Below, one piece after another: positions 19,826 through 26,065 of a stretch of 64,000 bases of DNA (position 1 is its first letter; each line of letters opens with the position of its first letter). The notes beneath the pieces are model-generated. The model was not told where the DNA came from and did not search any database. It was given only the letters and a program-made list of their open reading frames with translations. Source of the DNA: Acetobacterium sp. (GTDB lineage Bacteria > Bacillota > Clostridia > Eubacteriales > Eubacteriaceae); NCBI GenBank assembly GCA_028692885.1, contig JAQUWM010000001.1, forward strand, positions 1 to 64,000, in the 5' to 3' direction. Made by a program: the position numbers and the translations under genes.

Positions 19826-20590
19826 TTAGCTTGTTTTTAAATACTCTTCAAAAGTCAGATTGTTTTTAAAGATTTCCTCGGCTACATCCTTCCCCACGTA
19901 ACGCAGGTGCCAGGGTTCGTAAGCATATCCGGTGATGGCTGTTTTGTCCTCAGGATAACGAATAATAAAGCCATACTGATGGGCATTATTCTTAATAAAT
20001 TCCCCCTCCGCGGTTTGGCCGAAGCTTTCTAGAAGATCAAAATTAACAGATTCGGCCGTGACATCCATGGCCAGTCCAGTCTGATGCTCACTCTGACCCG
20101 GTTTTGCGCTGACCAGATCGGCCTCTTTCTGACCATAGCTTTTGACGTTCTCAGAATAGAGCTCTTTCTGGGTTTGATAGGATCGATAGCCGGAACAACA
20201 ATACAGCGACAGGTTTTTTAGCTCAGCTGCGTCAAAGAGATCTTCCAGTGGCGCAGCCGCTTCTTTTCGCAATTGGGTTTCCCTGACCCCCGGCAGATCG
20301 AGCCATACCAGATCGGATGGCAGATAATCTTCATCTAAATTGGTAGTTTTATTGACTAAGACCAGAGTATCATTGGGATCGGCGATAACCTGACTGGCAG
20401 TTGTATCGGTACGGTTTCCCTGGGTCGAGTTAGTGGCGGCTGGATTAGCTGCATCGCTGGTGGTTTGCACCGGCGCATTGCTTGATGAAATAGCGTTCCA
20501 GATCATATAGATGGATAAACCCAACAGGATGATAAGCACTCCCAGCAGTCCCATCATTAAATAGAATCTCTTTTTATTTTGAATATGCAT
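19826..20590 (-). CDS. VanY-type D-alanyl-D-alanine carboxypeptidase (M15)
   Basis: N-terminal TM; SEHQTGLAMDVT and YEPWHLRYVG zinc ligands. Confidence 0.93.
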   Translation of the reverse strand: MHIQNKKRFYLMMGLLGVLIILLGLSIYMIWNAISSSNAPVQTTSDAANPAATNSTQGNRTDTTASQVIADPNDTLVLVNKTTNLDEDYLPSDLVWLDLPGVRETQLRKEAAAPLEDLFDAAELKNLSLYCCSGYRSYQTQKELYSENVKSYGQKEADLVSAKPGQSEHQTGLAMDVTAESVNFDLLESFGQTAEGEFIKNNAHQYGFIIRYPEDKTAITGYAYEPWHLRYVGKDVAEEIFKNNLTFEEYLKTS

Positions 20591-20615
20591 GGTGTTCTCC
20601 TTTTCTAATTTACGA

Positions 20616-22166
20616 TCATGGACTATAGTTATAACCCCGGGTATTGATCGATATCATATTATCTCCCAGGGGCTCGCAATTAATGTTGAGGGTACTGGGA
20701 ATCGAATATCCGGTTACATTGAAAACAGAAAGGGTCCCGATCGTTCCGTTAGGATTAACCCCGACGATCTGATAATTTCCGGTCGAGGAGTAGGAACTGC
20801 CATTGCCATAACTATAGGAATAAGTAACGTAACCGTTGCTAAAGTAATACTGATAAAAATACGATCCGGAACGCGATGTCCATGAACCCGAAAGATTGTT
20901 TTCCAGAATGGCTTCACTGCTAGCCGAAATGATGTATTTTCCTTCAATGGTTCGACTGGGATAACCATTTGCACCCACTTCAATGGCTTTAATCGTCTTT
21001 TCTCCCGGCGTCAGTTCGATGACCGTGGTATATTCCGGAGAGGCGGTGGTTGGCTGTGAACCGTCGGTAGTAAAGTAAATCTTATCGGCCGGATCTCCTT
21101 TGATAATATCCACCGCCTGAGTTCCCTGGTAAGAGCCGGGATTTAAATTAAAGGAAGGTGCTTTAACCATAAACTCACCTTTTCGTTTAATATATCCCTC
21201 GTCTCCAGTATCCTTTGCAGCCCGATCCATCAGGGTAAAGAGGGCTTCTTCTCCGACTTTGGCGTTCACCTCTGAATCAATATAAGCATTATATACCTGT
21301 TTCATTTTCTCAAGATCAGTGATTCGTTTCAAGGTATCTTCAAAATAGGTTCTAGCATTGCCATAGTCTCCCAGACCGGCATATGCCTTAGCTTTTCCGA
21401 AAACAGCATCGGCATTATCTGAATCCAGGATGCCCACTGCTTCAAAAGCTTTGATTGCTTCATCGAATTTGGCTTCGGTCAGTAGTGTTTCTCCATTTTT
21501 CAGGTCGGCACTGATTTCTGTGCTGCGCTGGTAGTTTAAATAACCAGCCACCCCGCCGCCAACCAGTAGCAATCCTAGGATAACCGAGCTGGCAATAATC
21601 ACCGGTTTTTTATGCTTGAATGGTTTATGCTGTTTAAAAACCAGGGACTCCGTATTTTCGATGACATAGGGTTCAGTCATCACTTCCACCAGAGCTTCGG
21701 TTTTTTCATCTATTAAGGCTTCCGTTTGTTCCAGCATCAGGGCTTCGGTCTCTTCACTGATCAGTGCCTCAGTTTCTTCGATAATTAAGGCTTCGGTTTT
21801 TTCTTCGTCGTCAATGACCTCTTCTGCTGCCGTTATCTCCTCTGCCGCGACCAGAGCCTCCGTTTGTTCTTCCAGTTCTTCATTTGCGGGATCGGCCACA
21901 GCTTCCGTTTCATTACCTACCAGCGCCTCCGTCTGCTCTGCTGCTGTAGCAATCTTCTGATCCTCCCGATCCACATTGAGATCATTGTCTGCTGCCTTGG
22001 CCAGGACTTCGGTTTTTTCTTGCTCTGGCTGCTTGATCAGAGTTTCTGCCACTGTTTTGTTTTCAGCGGCTACCAATGCGTCGTTATTACCCTCAATTGC
22101 CGCCATCTTTCCATTGATTGGCCTTTTGTTTCTTCGTGATTTTGATTTCATAAGTACCCCTTTCAA
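20616..22166 (-). CDS. Membrane protein: N-terminal TEAL-repeat segment, TM, TPR, chitobiase/hexosaminidase C-terminal-like domain
   Basis: aa 124-175 8-residue repeats, KHKKP then TM aa ~189-212, TPR-like region, FTTDGSQPTTASPEYT domain. Confidence 0.85.
   Translation of the reverse strand: MKGVLMKSKSRRNKRPINGKMAAIEGNNDALVAAENKTVAETLIKQPEQEKTEVLAKAADNDLNVDREDQKIATAAEQTEALVGNETEAVADPANEELEEQTEALVAAEEITAAEEVIDDEEKTEALIIEETEALISEETEALMLEQTEALIDEKTEALVEVMTEPYVIENTESLVFKQHKPFKHKKPVIIASSVILGLLLVGGGVAGYLNYQRSTEISADLKNGETLLTEAKFDEAIKAFEAVGILDSDNADAVFGKAKAYAGLGDYGNARTYFEDTLKRITDLEKMKQVYNAYIDSEVNAKVGEEALFTLMDRAAKDTGDEGYIKRKGEFMVKAPSFNLNPGSYQGTQAVDIIKGDPADKIYFTTDGSQPTTASPEYTTVIELTPGEKTIKAIEVGANGYPSRTIEGKYIISASSEAILENNLSGSWTSRSGSYFYQYYFSNGYVTYSYSYGNGSSYSSTGNYQIVGVNPNGTIGTLSVFNVTGYSIPSTLNINCEPLGDNMISINTRGYNYSP
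21642..21797 (-). repeat. In-frame tandem 8-residue repeat, consensus TEAL[IVM]xEx (7 units)
   Basis: TEALIIEE TEALISEE TEALMLEQ TEALIDEK TEALVEVM TEPYVIEN TESL; Thr at aa 124, 132, 140, 148, 156, 164, 172. Confidence 0.95.
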
Positions 22167-22212
22167 ATGTGTTGATTTCAGTAAAGGCTGATCTTAGCCT
22201 TTACAACTGCTA

Positions 22213-23307
22213 TTAGATTTCTACATAAAATTGATTGACGCCAAAACTGACGCTATCGCCATTTTTTATCACATAATTATCATTTGGTTTCAATTGTTTT
22301 TTATTTAATAAGATCCCATTCGTCGAACCAAGATCTGAAATATGGTAGGAGCCAGCATGATAACTGACCAAACAATGGGAGCGACTGATCCCTGTTGCCC
22401 GCAACACAAAATCAACATTATCCGGACCTCTGCCGATAGTAAAGGGAATTTTCGACACGGGTATTTCAATCCAGTCCCCTTCAACCTTAACCGGATGAAA
22501 CACTGGTATTTTTGCAGTTCCATGATGAGCCACTCCAGTCGTTAATGTTTCCTGACTTTTTTGAATCTTTGCTTTAACCTGAGGCGCCTTCTCCTCCGCA
22601 ACGGATTCCACAGTTGATCCATAAGATAGTGGCTTTTTCACACCCTCAGTCATAATTTCATCAATCATGCTTTTGAAAATTGTTTCCTCTAGCGGCAATC
22701 GCTGAGCCAGCTCAATGATTTTTTTTAATCGACTGATGGCTTTCTGATCAAGATTATTCTCATTTAAAAACTGCCGCAAGGTTGACTTGAAATGATTCAT
22801 CTCCCGGAACCCATCGTCCTTTTTCAAAACCCGACTAGAACCACTTCCCTCAGATCCACTGTGATTTTTAAAACTCTGCTTTCCCTGGATTCGCTTCATT
22901 TGCTTTTCCGTTTTAATTTCCACTTGTTCCTGACTGTCGGGATACTCGTCTTCATTTGCTTTGCCCGAGGGCTGAGTGTTGACAGACAATACATCCAGAA
23001 TTACTGCGGACAGTTCCAGGCAATCACCAGCAACGATCTGATACTTTCTTGACGGCTCAATTTCCACCCCATTAAGAATGGTGCCGGAACTGGAATTCAG
23101 ATCCTCAAGGTACCAACTGCCATCCGTTTGGGTTAACTGCCCATGATTTCGGCTGACTGTTTTATTGTTGATATAAAAATCACTGGAATTGGGATCCCGC
23201 CCAATAATAAATGGGCTCACGTTCAATTCATAAATCTTGCCATCATACATCAGTACCAAATCACTTTTTATCTTGTCCTGTTTTTTTTCCTTCATGTCTT
23301 CCTCCAT
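22213..23307 (-). CDS. Double FHA-domain protein
   Basis: FHA1 FIIGRDPN...VSRNHGQL...DLNSSSGTILN; FHA2 FTIGRGPDNVDF...ISRSHCLV...DLGSTNGILLN. Confidence 0.93.
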   Translation of the reverse strand: MEEDMKEKKQDKIKSDLVLMYDGKIYELNVSPFIIGRDPNSSDFYINNKTVSRNHGQLTQTDGSWYLEDLNSSSGTILNGVEIEPSRKYQIVAGDCLELSAVILDVLSVNTQPSGKANEDEYPDSQEQVEIKTEKQMKRIQGKQSFKNHSGSEGSGSSRVLKKDDGFREMNHFKSTLRQFLNENNLDQKAISRLKKIIELAQRLPLEETIFKSMIDEIMTEGVKKPLSYGSTVESVAEEKAPQVKAKIQKSQETLTTGVAHHGTAKIPVFHPVKVEGDWIEIPVSKIPFTIGRGPDNVDFVLRATGISRSHCLVSYHAGSYHISDLGSTNGILLNKKQLKPNDNYVIKNGDSVSFGVNQFYVEI

Positions 23308-23323
23308 AACCTTCTCTTCTCTA

Positions 23324-24244
23324 TTAATAAGCTGATATTAACGCGATTAAAAAAAGCATTGCCAGTATTAATAACACATTGCTGGCTTGTATCTGACGCT
23401 CTTCAAATTCCACATCCTTAATCTGATTTCCTGAGGCCAGATCGCCGAGGATCTCTTCAAAACTGCTGTAACGCAGATGGGGTTTAACCGCAATCGCTTT
23501 CATCAGGATCTGAGTAATTTCCTGCGGAGCTGTTTCATTTAATTTTTTCTCCATAATCGCATAACTTTCGAACGGACTAGTTTTCATATTTTCCGGTTTT
23601 TTGCCCGTAGTGACGTAATACATGGTGACTCCAAAGCCATAAATATCAGTTTGTACCGTTCCCACTTTCTTGGTAAACCGCTCCGGCGCGGTAAAGGACA
23701 AGGTTCCAAAAACATTTTTATCCGCCTGATCGATTTGTTCTTTTTTCCGGGCCAGACCAAAATCGATTATTTTTATTTCACAATCATCGGTCAGCATCAT
23801 ATTATCCGGCTTGATATCCCGATGAATCAGCCCCTGCTGATGGAGATAATCGAAAGTTGCTGCTATGCTTTTCATCCATATTTTCAGATACTCTTCCCTG
23901 ATTTTGCCACACTTTCGGATGATTAGACTGAGGGACTCCCCACGGATATATTCCTGAACCATATAAACATACTCCTGATCCTCGGTGACCTCGATGATCT
24001 TGGGAATTCCCGGGTGATCCAGACCCTTCATAACATCCGCCTCGCGCATGAAATCTAACTTATTATCGAAATAAGCTTCCTTATCGAGCACTTTCAAGGC
24101 AAAGTCAGCGGTTTCGATAGCATTACTTTGGACATGAAAAACACAGCCCATTCCGCCATTACCCAGCATTTTTATGATCTGGTATTCCTGGTCAAACACG
24201 CTTCTGATTTTTTCTTCAATTCTTGCAATTTTCTCTTTTTTCAT
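23324..24244 (-). CDS. Hanks-type Ser/Thr protein kinase with C-terminal TM
   Basis: LGNGGMGCVF, FALKVL, HRDIKPDNMML, DFGLA, APE; C-terminal hydrophobic VLLILAMLFLIALISAY. Confidence 0.95.
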   Translation of the reverse strand: MKKEKIARIEEKIRSVFDQEYQIIKMLGNGGMGCVFHVQSNAIETADFALKVLDKEAYFDNKLDFMREADVMKGLDHPGIPKIIEVTEDQEYVYMVQEYIRGESLSLIIRKCGKIREEYLKIWMKSIAATFDYLHQQGLIHRDIKPDNMMLTDDCEIKIIDFGLARKKEQIDQADKNVFGTLSFTAPERFTKKVGTVQTDIYGFGVTMYYVTTGKKPENMKTSPFESYAIMEKKLNETAPQEITQILMKAIAVKPHLRYSSFEEILGDLASGNQIKDVEFEERQIQASNVLLILAMLFLIALISAY

Positions 24245-24730: not shown

Positions 24731-26065
24731 ATGAAAAAAAGTATTTTCAAATCCGTCACCGGTCGTCTTCTGATTCTCCTGCTGATGCTATCAATGATTT
24801 TTTCAACCGGCGTTTTTGCGGCTGTCGAATCAGAAAGTTCAGCAGCAGATAACATCCTTGACACCCAGGCAAATGGGGACATTGGCGTCCAATATCGGGG
24901 ACATGTGCAGAATAAAGGGGATATGCCGCTGCCAGTAGGCGACTTCGTTACCGGTCCCGCTGAACTGGGCAGCCACGGCGAGGGGCTTCGCCTGGAAGGA
25001 ATCCGGATTGAACTCACCGGCGATATTCCTGTTGGAGCAGGAGTCAGCTATGAGGTCCATGTCCAGAATAAAGGCTGGATGGGAACGGTGGAAAACGGCG
25101 ATTTTTCCGGAACCACGGGAGAAGGACTGCGGATTGAAGCGATCAAAATTAATCTGACTGGTCTTGATGGTTATGAAGTCTATTACCGTGGCCACGTCCA
25201 GAACAAAGGCGATATCCCCGTTGTCGACAACGCCTGGGGCTGGGTTAAAAACGGGGCTGAGCTGGGAACAACTGGTGAAAGCCTGCGCCTGGAATCGATC
25301 CAGATAAAAATCGTTAAAACTGAAACCTTTACTGCGCTGGGAGATTCCATTGCCTATGGGATGAGTGCAACCCCCGGCTCCGGTTATGTCGATCTTTTTT
25401 ATAACCATTTCAAAGAATCTAGTTCATTTGAAGATATGTCGCTGGTTAATTTGAGCGTCCCAGGTTATACATCCAGTCAGCTCCTGTATCAGCTTCAGAA
25501 CGATCCGGCAACCAGTGCCTCACTGAGCAAGGCGAAGGTTGTTACCATCAGTGTTGGGGGCAACAATATCCTCGCACCGGTTATTGCCAGTCTGGCCGCT
25601 GCTTTTCAGCTGGATCCTACCTCACCGACCTTCCCGGCTGATCTGGCGACTGCTTTAGCCCAACCCGGTGCCCAGGATATCATTACCGCTGCCCTGCCGG
25701 AGATCCAGACTAATGTCACGGCCAGTGTCACACAATTTGCCACCGATTGGCCGCAAATTATTGGAACCATCAAAACTCTGGCGCCCCAGGCCAATATTGT
25801 TGTGGCAACCCTATACGATCCGATCAGTAGCCAGGATCCTCTTTTTGCCATTTTCGAGCCATCCATTCAGACCATTAATACCGCCATCAAGACACCTGAC
25901 AGCGGTTATATGGTGGCGGATGTCTACACTGCTTTTGCAACCTATCAGGGTATCGAGCCACTGGTTAATTTCAACTGGTACACCGGTAATCTTGATCCTC
26001 ACCCTACCACCGCCGGTCATGAGCTGATTTATCAGTGCCACCTGAATGCCGGATTTATCAACTAG
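24731..26065 (+). CDS. Secreted SGNH/GDSL hydrolase with three ChW repeats
   Basis: Signal peptide; three GHVQNKG...GEGLRLE-type ChW repeats; GDSIAYG, GGNNI, HPTTAGH. Confidence 0.92.
   Translation: MKKSIFKSVTGRLLILLLMLSMIFSTGVFAAVESESSAADNILDTQANGDIGVQYRGHVQNKGDMPLPVGDFVTGPAELGSHGEGLRLEGIRIELTGDIPVGAGVSYEVHVQNKGWMGTVENGDFSGTTGEGLRIEAIKINLTGLDGYEVYYRGHVQNKGDIPVVDNAWGWVKNGAELGTTGESLRLESIQIKIVKTETFTALGDSIAYGMSATPGSGYVDLFYNHFKESSSFEDMSLVNLSVPGYTSSQLLYQLQNDPATSASLSKAKVVTISVGGNNILAPVIASLAAAFQLDPTSPTFPADLATALAQPGAQDIITAALPEIQTNVTASVTQFATDWPQIIGTIKTLAPQANIVVATLYDPISSQDPLFAIFEPSIQTINTAIKTPDSGYMVADVYTAFATYQGIEPLVNFNWYTGNLDPHPTTAGHELIYQCHLNAGFIN

Follow-up and report, generated by a model that had tools for sequence, protein, structure and literature searches.

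A candidate kinase, FHA and threonine-array cassette in Acetobacterium and a putative FHA docking tag in related Eubacteriaceae

Introduction

What might a Ser/Thr kinase, a protein with two FHA domains, a membrane protein with a repeated threonine motif and a VanY-type peptidase have to do with each other when their genes lie side by side? The question is raised by a locus in a 64,000-nucleotide stretch of Acetobacterium DNA (the window), for which the original prediction had proposed a phospho-relay. According to this proposal, the kinase would phosphorylate threonines on the cytosolic part of the membrane protein, the FHA protein would read them, and the output would reach the envelope through the extracellular domain of the membrane protein and through VanY.

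To our knowledge, the ligand is known for only few bacterial FHA readers, and in the Clostridia almost none of them has been matched to a tag. FHA domains bind phosphothreonine and discriminate against phosphoserine, with the threonine methyl group filling a small cavity, and some of them, though not all, have a preference for the residue at pT+3 (PMC4037201). For the pneumococcal kinase StkP, a target motif with acidic residues upstream and a defined residue class at +3 has been given (PMC12077195), in symbols that are ambiguous in the source, such that we do not lean on it here.

Genes of the cassette

All four genes are present and uninterrupted on the minus strand, in the order kinase, double-FHA protein, single-pass membrane protein and VanY peptidase (Table 1), and both the inspection of the open reading frames and Pfam matches above cut-off agree with the original prediction in this respect. 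The small spacings between them are real as well, though the exact values need correction from 17, 47 and 26 bp to 16, 46 and 25 bp. Furthermore, the membrane protein more likely starts at the ATG at 22151, which is preceded by AAAGGGG, giving a protein of 511 residues and a gap of 61 bp to the FHA gene. That the four genes are probably co-transcribed, as had been proposed, we infer from the tight spacing and the synteny described below.

Table 1. Coordinates of the cassette genes and their parts in the window, and of FHA-like proteins at two other loci
Feature	Position	Strand	Basis or remark
Hanks-type Ser/Thr kinase, 306 aa	23324..24244	-	Pfam Pkinase 8.8e-50
Kinase catalytic domain	23450-24184	-	Pfam Pkinase
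Kinase predicted C-terminal TM segment	about 23333-23395	-	tail-anchored, without ectodomain
Soluble double-FHA protein, 364 aa	22213..23307	-	Pfam FHA 4e-35, two stretches
FHA1	about 22984-23259	-	helical linker separates FHA1 from FHA2
FHA2	about 22216-22470	-	Pfam FHA
Single-pass array membrane protein, 511 aa	20616..22151	-	Pfam, AlphaFold, Foldseek TPR matches
ExT[E/A]AL array, residues 116-172	21636..21806	-	invariant Thr 119, 127, 135, 143, 151, 159, 167
Array protein predicted TM segment	21537..21605	-	sequence; helix in AlphaFold model
Array protein predicted extracellular part	20619..21485	-	Pfam, AlphaFold, Foldseek
TPR	about 21174-21485	-	within predicted extracellular part of array protein
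CHB_HEX_C_1-like domain	about 20934-21128	-	within predicted extracellular part of array protein
Terminal beta domain	about 20619-20894	-	within predicted extracellular part of array protein
VanY/YodJ-like M15 carboxypeptidase, 254 aa	19826..20590	-	Pfam VanY 4.8e-45
Eroded-pocket FHA-like proteins beside untagged Zn-ribbon membrane proteins	L232 9906-10877, L233 9601-10572		

The kinase carries the motifs GGMGCVF, ALKVLDK, HRDIKPDN, DFG and APE, which make it a Hanks-type Ser/Thr kinase, and its one C-terminal TM segment is followed by almost no sequence. It is thus the intact, tail-anchored enzyme that had been described. Six orthologs are 51-84% identical, with invariant catalytic motifs, and a C-terminal TM segment is also predicted in them. 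It does not belong to the PASTA kinases (PrkC/PknB/StkP) as defined by NCBIfam NF033483, for which it scores 193.6 bits against a cut-off of 450. The genome from which the window is taken has two further kinase matches; a search of the same genome found no FHA gene besides that of the cassette.

In the FHA protein, the claim of two domains proved right, and both have intact binding pockets, the residues G-R, S-R-x-H and N-G being conserved in the six aligned orthologs. The AlphaFold model matches solved FHA domains, including FhaA/Rv3910 (3oun, one of the best matches) and DgcB/phosphopeptide complexes, such that pocket residues and fold predict a phosphothreonine-binding protein. The last gene encodes an M15 peptidase with intact SxHxxGxAxD and EPWH motifs (Pfam VanY 153 bits, cut-off 25), which scores under every NCBIfam vanY cut-off and whose nearest solved homologs are 4mph, 4jid and YodJ (4ox3).

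Two observations concern the surroundings of these genes. The FHA/array intergene (22180-22206, minus strand) contains a perfect 9-bp inverted repeat, GTAAAGGCT-AAGATC-AGCCTTTAC; an RNA hairpin at this place was considered and rejected, the z value of -1.46 against shuffles not being significant. Upstream of the cassette, a divergent gene on the plus strand (24731-26065) encodes a GDSL lipase with three ChW (clostridial hydrophobic) repeats.

Conservation of the cassette in Acetobacterium

The gene neighbourhood was searched in all 19 genomes of the genus, and kinase, FHA and array genes were found together and in synteny in six genomes of the Acetobacterium group (G000, which is the window genome, G001, G003, G010, G016 and G005). 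Among the close relatives picked up by scanning for FHA proteins are Acetobacterium dehalogenans DSM 11527 and A. fimetarium DSM 8238, with contigs matching G001 and G016. Cassette-type FHA homologs occur in only seven of the 19 genomes, and the full array protein in only six of these seven. The seventh is G015, where kinase and FHA genes lie at a contig end and the array gene was not found in the assembly; no other genome has such an FHA gene but no detected array. The reverse case, an array without an FHA gene, was not found among the 19 genomes, and wherever contigs permit a test, a genome has either both FHA and array or neither. We also looked for loci that keep kinase and FHA while the array lacks its threonines, which the original prediction had named as a refutation, and found none.

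Two genomes, G008 and G017, have kept the kinase and have neither FHA protein nor array. In G017 the kinase is an orphan. In G008 it is intact, and the loss of FHA and array has left a scar (L164 7853-9221) in which the C-terminal 33 residues of the array protein can still be read, together with a VanY that is shortened internally. Since the kinase persists here without its presumed partners, it either has other work to do or is decaying.

The threonine array

The array protein begins with an acidic segment (residues 1-181) that is modelled as disordered (AlphaFold pLDDT under 50), apart from a low-confidence helix at residues 133-158, and the model continues with a TM helix, TPR helices and two beta domains. 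CHB_HEX_C_1 lies above the Pfam cut-off (1.4e-14) and TPR_16 just below it; together with the AlphaFold model and Foldseek matches to TPR proteins, this bears out the single-pass protein with a TPR/chitobiase-like part that had been predicted. Because of the basic stretch KQHKPFKHKKP before the TM segment, the array is predicted to lie in the cytosol.

In the window protein, seven threonines follow each other at a distance of exactly 8 residues, and two of the orthologs show small indels within the array. T[EDA]x[LIVM] motifs occur 10 times in 180 residues, as compared to 1.37 times in shuffles of the same residues, a count that was reached in none of 20,000 shuffles. When the test was extended over six orthologs, the respective count was never reached in five of them, and once in 20,000 shuffles in the sixth. 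All seven threonines are identical in the six orthologs, the most distant of which is 58% identical overall, and serine does not occur at any of these positions. This holds even in G005, where serine (15) is nearly as common in the segment as threonine (20), yet is absent from the array positions. All seven threonine codons vary silently at the third base between orthologs. The surrounding positions are also constrained: glutamate at -2 is fixed in six repeats and leucine at +3 in six, and -2, +2 and +3 are nearly fixed overall. For the three closest pairs, pN/pS values of 0.08-0.16 were obtained for the array, as opposed to 0.45-0.50 for the stretch upstream of it. On this sequence evidence, the threonine array is real and under selection. 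In a search of the class, a 62-residue array query matched two of 391 genomes, both of them Acetobacterium.

T-E-x-L sequences at other FHA loci

In other genera of the family, a similar motif occurs in single copy at FHA loci. It was first noticed in L062 and L063 (the latter identical to L163), so that the loci examined later serve as the test, and the loci were gathered without use of the motif, either with FHA queries or through homology with the array protein. At these family loci, 14 tails of single-pass proteins are predicted to be cytosolic, and 12 of them have T[ED]xL, where 0.7 would be expected (Poisson 1e-11). Homologous pairs, several of them between G021 and G063, enter this count separately, which leaves about nine independent cases. 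The tails read VTEDLT, ETEDLL, ETEELE, KTEELLD, NTEELLD, KTEPLVP, VTEQLLD, VTEDLLN and PTEDLN, and the two untagged ones belong to an antisense ORF and to a protein with a lipoprotein-like leader. A simpler distance-based test within the family gave p = 0.01, with some linked proteins on the other strand or next to weak FHA matches among its controls. In a class-wide survey of 40 FHA loci, the tag was not enriched (1/28).

Two small membrane proteins, at L163 (7214-7510; without a Pfam match) and L156 (7108-7428), end exactly in KTEKL and QTEKL, respectively. That the tag can stand at the very C-terminus of small proteins supports the idea that it is portable.

There are also loci where reader and tag are altered. 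In G028 and G033, an FHA-like protein has lost its pocket residues, and the Zn-ribbon membrane proteins next to it carry no tag (Table 1); these look like natural loss-of-function cases. In G020 and G027, the FHA pocket has G-K instead of G-R, and the adjoining tails are untagged. In G023, the tag is present, but the FHA domains found lack the canonical arginine of G-R. These three genomes, like the missing enrichment across the class, count against T-E-x-L as an FHA docking tag. Within Acetobacterium, there are paralogs of the array protein with Zn-ribbon, TPR and CHB domains. Of three such paralogs in FHA-positive genomes, two (L044, L049) have a single PEKTESLVP before the TM segment, whereas FHA-negative genomes have KTDSL, KIDSG or KIESG at this site or lack it, isoleucine having replaced the threonine in G007 and G012. 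The cases are too few to count, and we regard this association between paralog tag and FHA presence as suggestive.

TEPID-type matches close to kinase and FHA genes at L200-L202 were discarded, as they lie in a soluble protein, which we take to be isochorismatase-like, and not in a tail.

Discussion

With moderate confidence, we propose that the cassette encodes a scaffold in which writer, tag and reader are combined. The kinase, tethered to the membrane, would phosphorylate the threonine of T-E-x-L in the cytosolic tail of the single-pass protein encoded next to it, and the soluble double-FHA protein would bind to the phosphorylated sites. With seven to ten tags on a tail and two FHA domains per reader, phosphorylation could cross-link the membrane protein in many copies into a membrane patch, which would gather the extracellular TPR/chitobiase-like domain together with anything bound to the linker of the FHA protein. 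The clustering step is argued from the valency read in the sequences and by analogy to Rv1747 (see below). As compared to the original reading, the unit of kinase, FHA protein and array has gained comparative evidence, and the output via VanY is not supported. The term phospho-relay was loose, and a scaffold of writer, tag and reader is the better description. Of the proposed link to the envelope, what is left is the part that follows from the predicted topology of the array protein.

The writer could conceivably be another enzyme. In this scenario, a housekeeping PrkC-type kinase would phosphorylate the tails, and the targets of the cassette kinase would lie elsewhere or be the FHA protein itself, while docking of phosphorylated T-E-x-L to FHA domains would remain as proposed. 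A long PrkC-like kinase is indeed also encoded in the cassette-bearing genomes, and G023, despite its tagged tails and FHA genes, yielded only a PrkC-type kinase with the query used. The retention of the cassette kinase in G008 and G017 points in the same direction. However, this kinase lies directly upstream of FHA and array genes in all six complete loci, and a dedicated kinase is also encoded inside the FHA clusters of G021 and G063, which makes a PrkC-type writer less likely.

As to the tag, the array might instead be a structural or interaction repeat, for instance a transient amphipathic helix in which threonine is kept for packing. The low-confidence AlphaFold helix and the fact that the residues at -2 and at +2/+3 are about as invariant as the threonine would fit with this. 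However, the remainder of the segment is modelled as disordered, and a helix explains neither the exclusive use of threonine nor the single T-E-x-L in unrelated tails at FHA loci, such that we consider a purely structural role improbable and keep to the array as a set of putative docking sites.

For the output, one could think of VanY as the effector, with the phospho-signal switching cell-wall trimming. The gene order ends with VanY in the window, where it follows the array gene after 25 bp, and likewise at four orthologous loci, and its remnant still follows the scar in G008. However, one of the six loci, that of G005, lacks it, and the family is represented in all 19 genomes searched, so that a role of VanY in the relay is unsupported. 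It would furthermore be located outside the cell, with no visible link to the tail. We therefore give a VanY effector little credence; the peptidase is probably a passenger or neighbour of the cassette. Finally, the tandem structure of the array, with 24/48-bp periods in Tandem Repeats Finder, might suggest that a functionless 24-bp repeat has recently expanded under neutrality. We reject this as hardly credible in view of the silent codon variation and pN/pS, the DNA units matching at only 68-73% under a nearly fixed protein motif and purifying selection being strong over orthologs down to 57-58% identity.

The components of the proposed scaffold and its logic have precedents. The closest is the type VI secretion system of Agrobacterium, which reportedly involves PpkA, TssL and Fha and a single site on TssL. 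Common to both would be the path from a membrane kinase via a membrane protein to FHA binding, but the cassette has an array in place of the single site. In Agrobacterium, phosphorylation of the secretion system's membrane protein by the membrane kinase promotes binding of the FHA protein (Lin et al. 2014, as cited in PMC11217815). The cassette itself is not a type VI system by the genes looked for, its FHA protein scoring 76.1 bits against a TagH cut-off of 120.25, and no type VI gene was seen among the window proteins scanned. In mycobacteria, FhaA reads phosphothreonine on the membrane protein MviN (Rv3910), a target of the kinase PknB, and thereby controls cell-wall synthesis. The site in MviN lies in a pseudokinase region, whereas the array protein has seven to ten evenly spaced candidate sites in a disordered tail.

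A precedent for clustering is found in Mycobacterium tuberculosis, where the kinase PknF is encoded in one operon with Rv1747, a membrane protein with two FHA domains and a disordered linker (PMC9312465, PMC7761784), and where phosphorylation by PknF causes the FHA/linker module to cluster and to form condensates (PMC9312465). In Rv1747, FHA domains and linker are part of the transporter, whereas reader and tagged protein are separate in the cassette. An FHA-ABC protein does occur in the cluster of G021. At L163 (347-2706), such a protein, with FHA and ABC ATPase domains, and a separate ABC-2 permease are encoded upstream of FHA and kinase genes, and L156 (191-2541) has a counterpart by similarity only; this arrangement resembles a split relative of Rv1747.

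A membrane kinase and a separate FHA protein are also shared with the kinase, phosphatase and FHA genes of type VII secretion variants of the Bacillota, and further points of resemblance are TPRs in some of the kinases and, in one subtype, a DUF5050 protein (PMC11217815). Among the 16 window proteins scanned by Pfam, there was no homolog of WXG100, EssC or YukD. In the part of the literature that our searches covered, no paper described the present system and none dealt with FHA domains in Acetobacterium, and combining FHA with DUF5050 or Eubacterium brought up only papers on type VII secretion and on archaea. Thus, parts and logic are already known, while neither the multi-site array with its even spacing nor the T-E-x-L tag across the family appears to have been described.

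For the Eubacteriaceae as a whole, we tentatively suggest that T-E-x-L in an acidic context may be a portable FHA docking tag on the tails of otherwise unrelated membrane proteins. Acetobacterium might have amplified this tag to an array of 7-10 sites and so obtained a phospho-switchable scaffold with a bivalent reader, a possible bacterial counterpart of eukaryotic assemblies of multiple phosphothreonines and FHA domains. A tag that can be read in the sequence would allow membrane proteins recruited by FHA domains to be predicted directly from genomes, and an evenly spaced array with a two-domain adaptor would serve as a simple model, in bacteria, of phosphorylation-driven membrane clustering.
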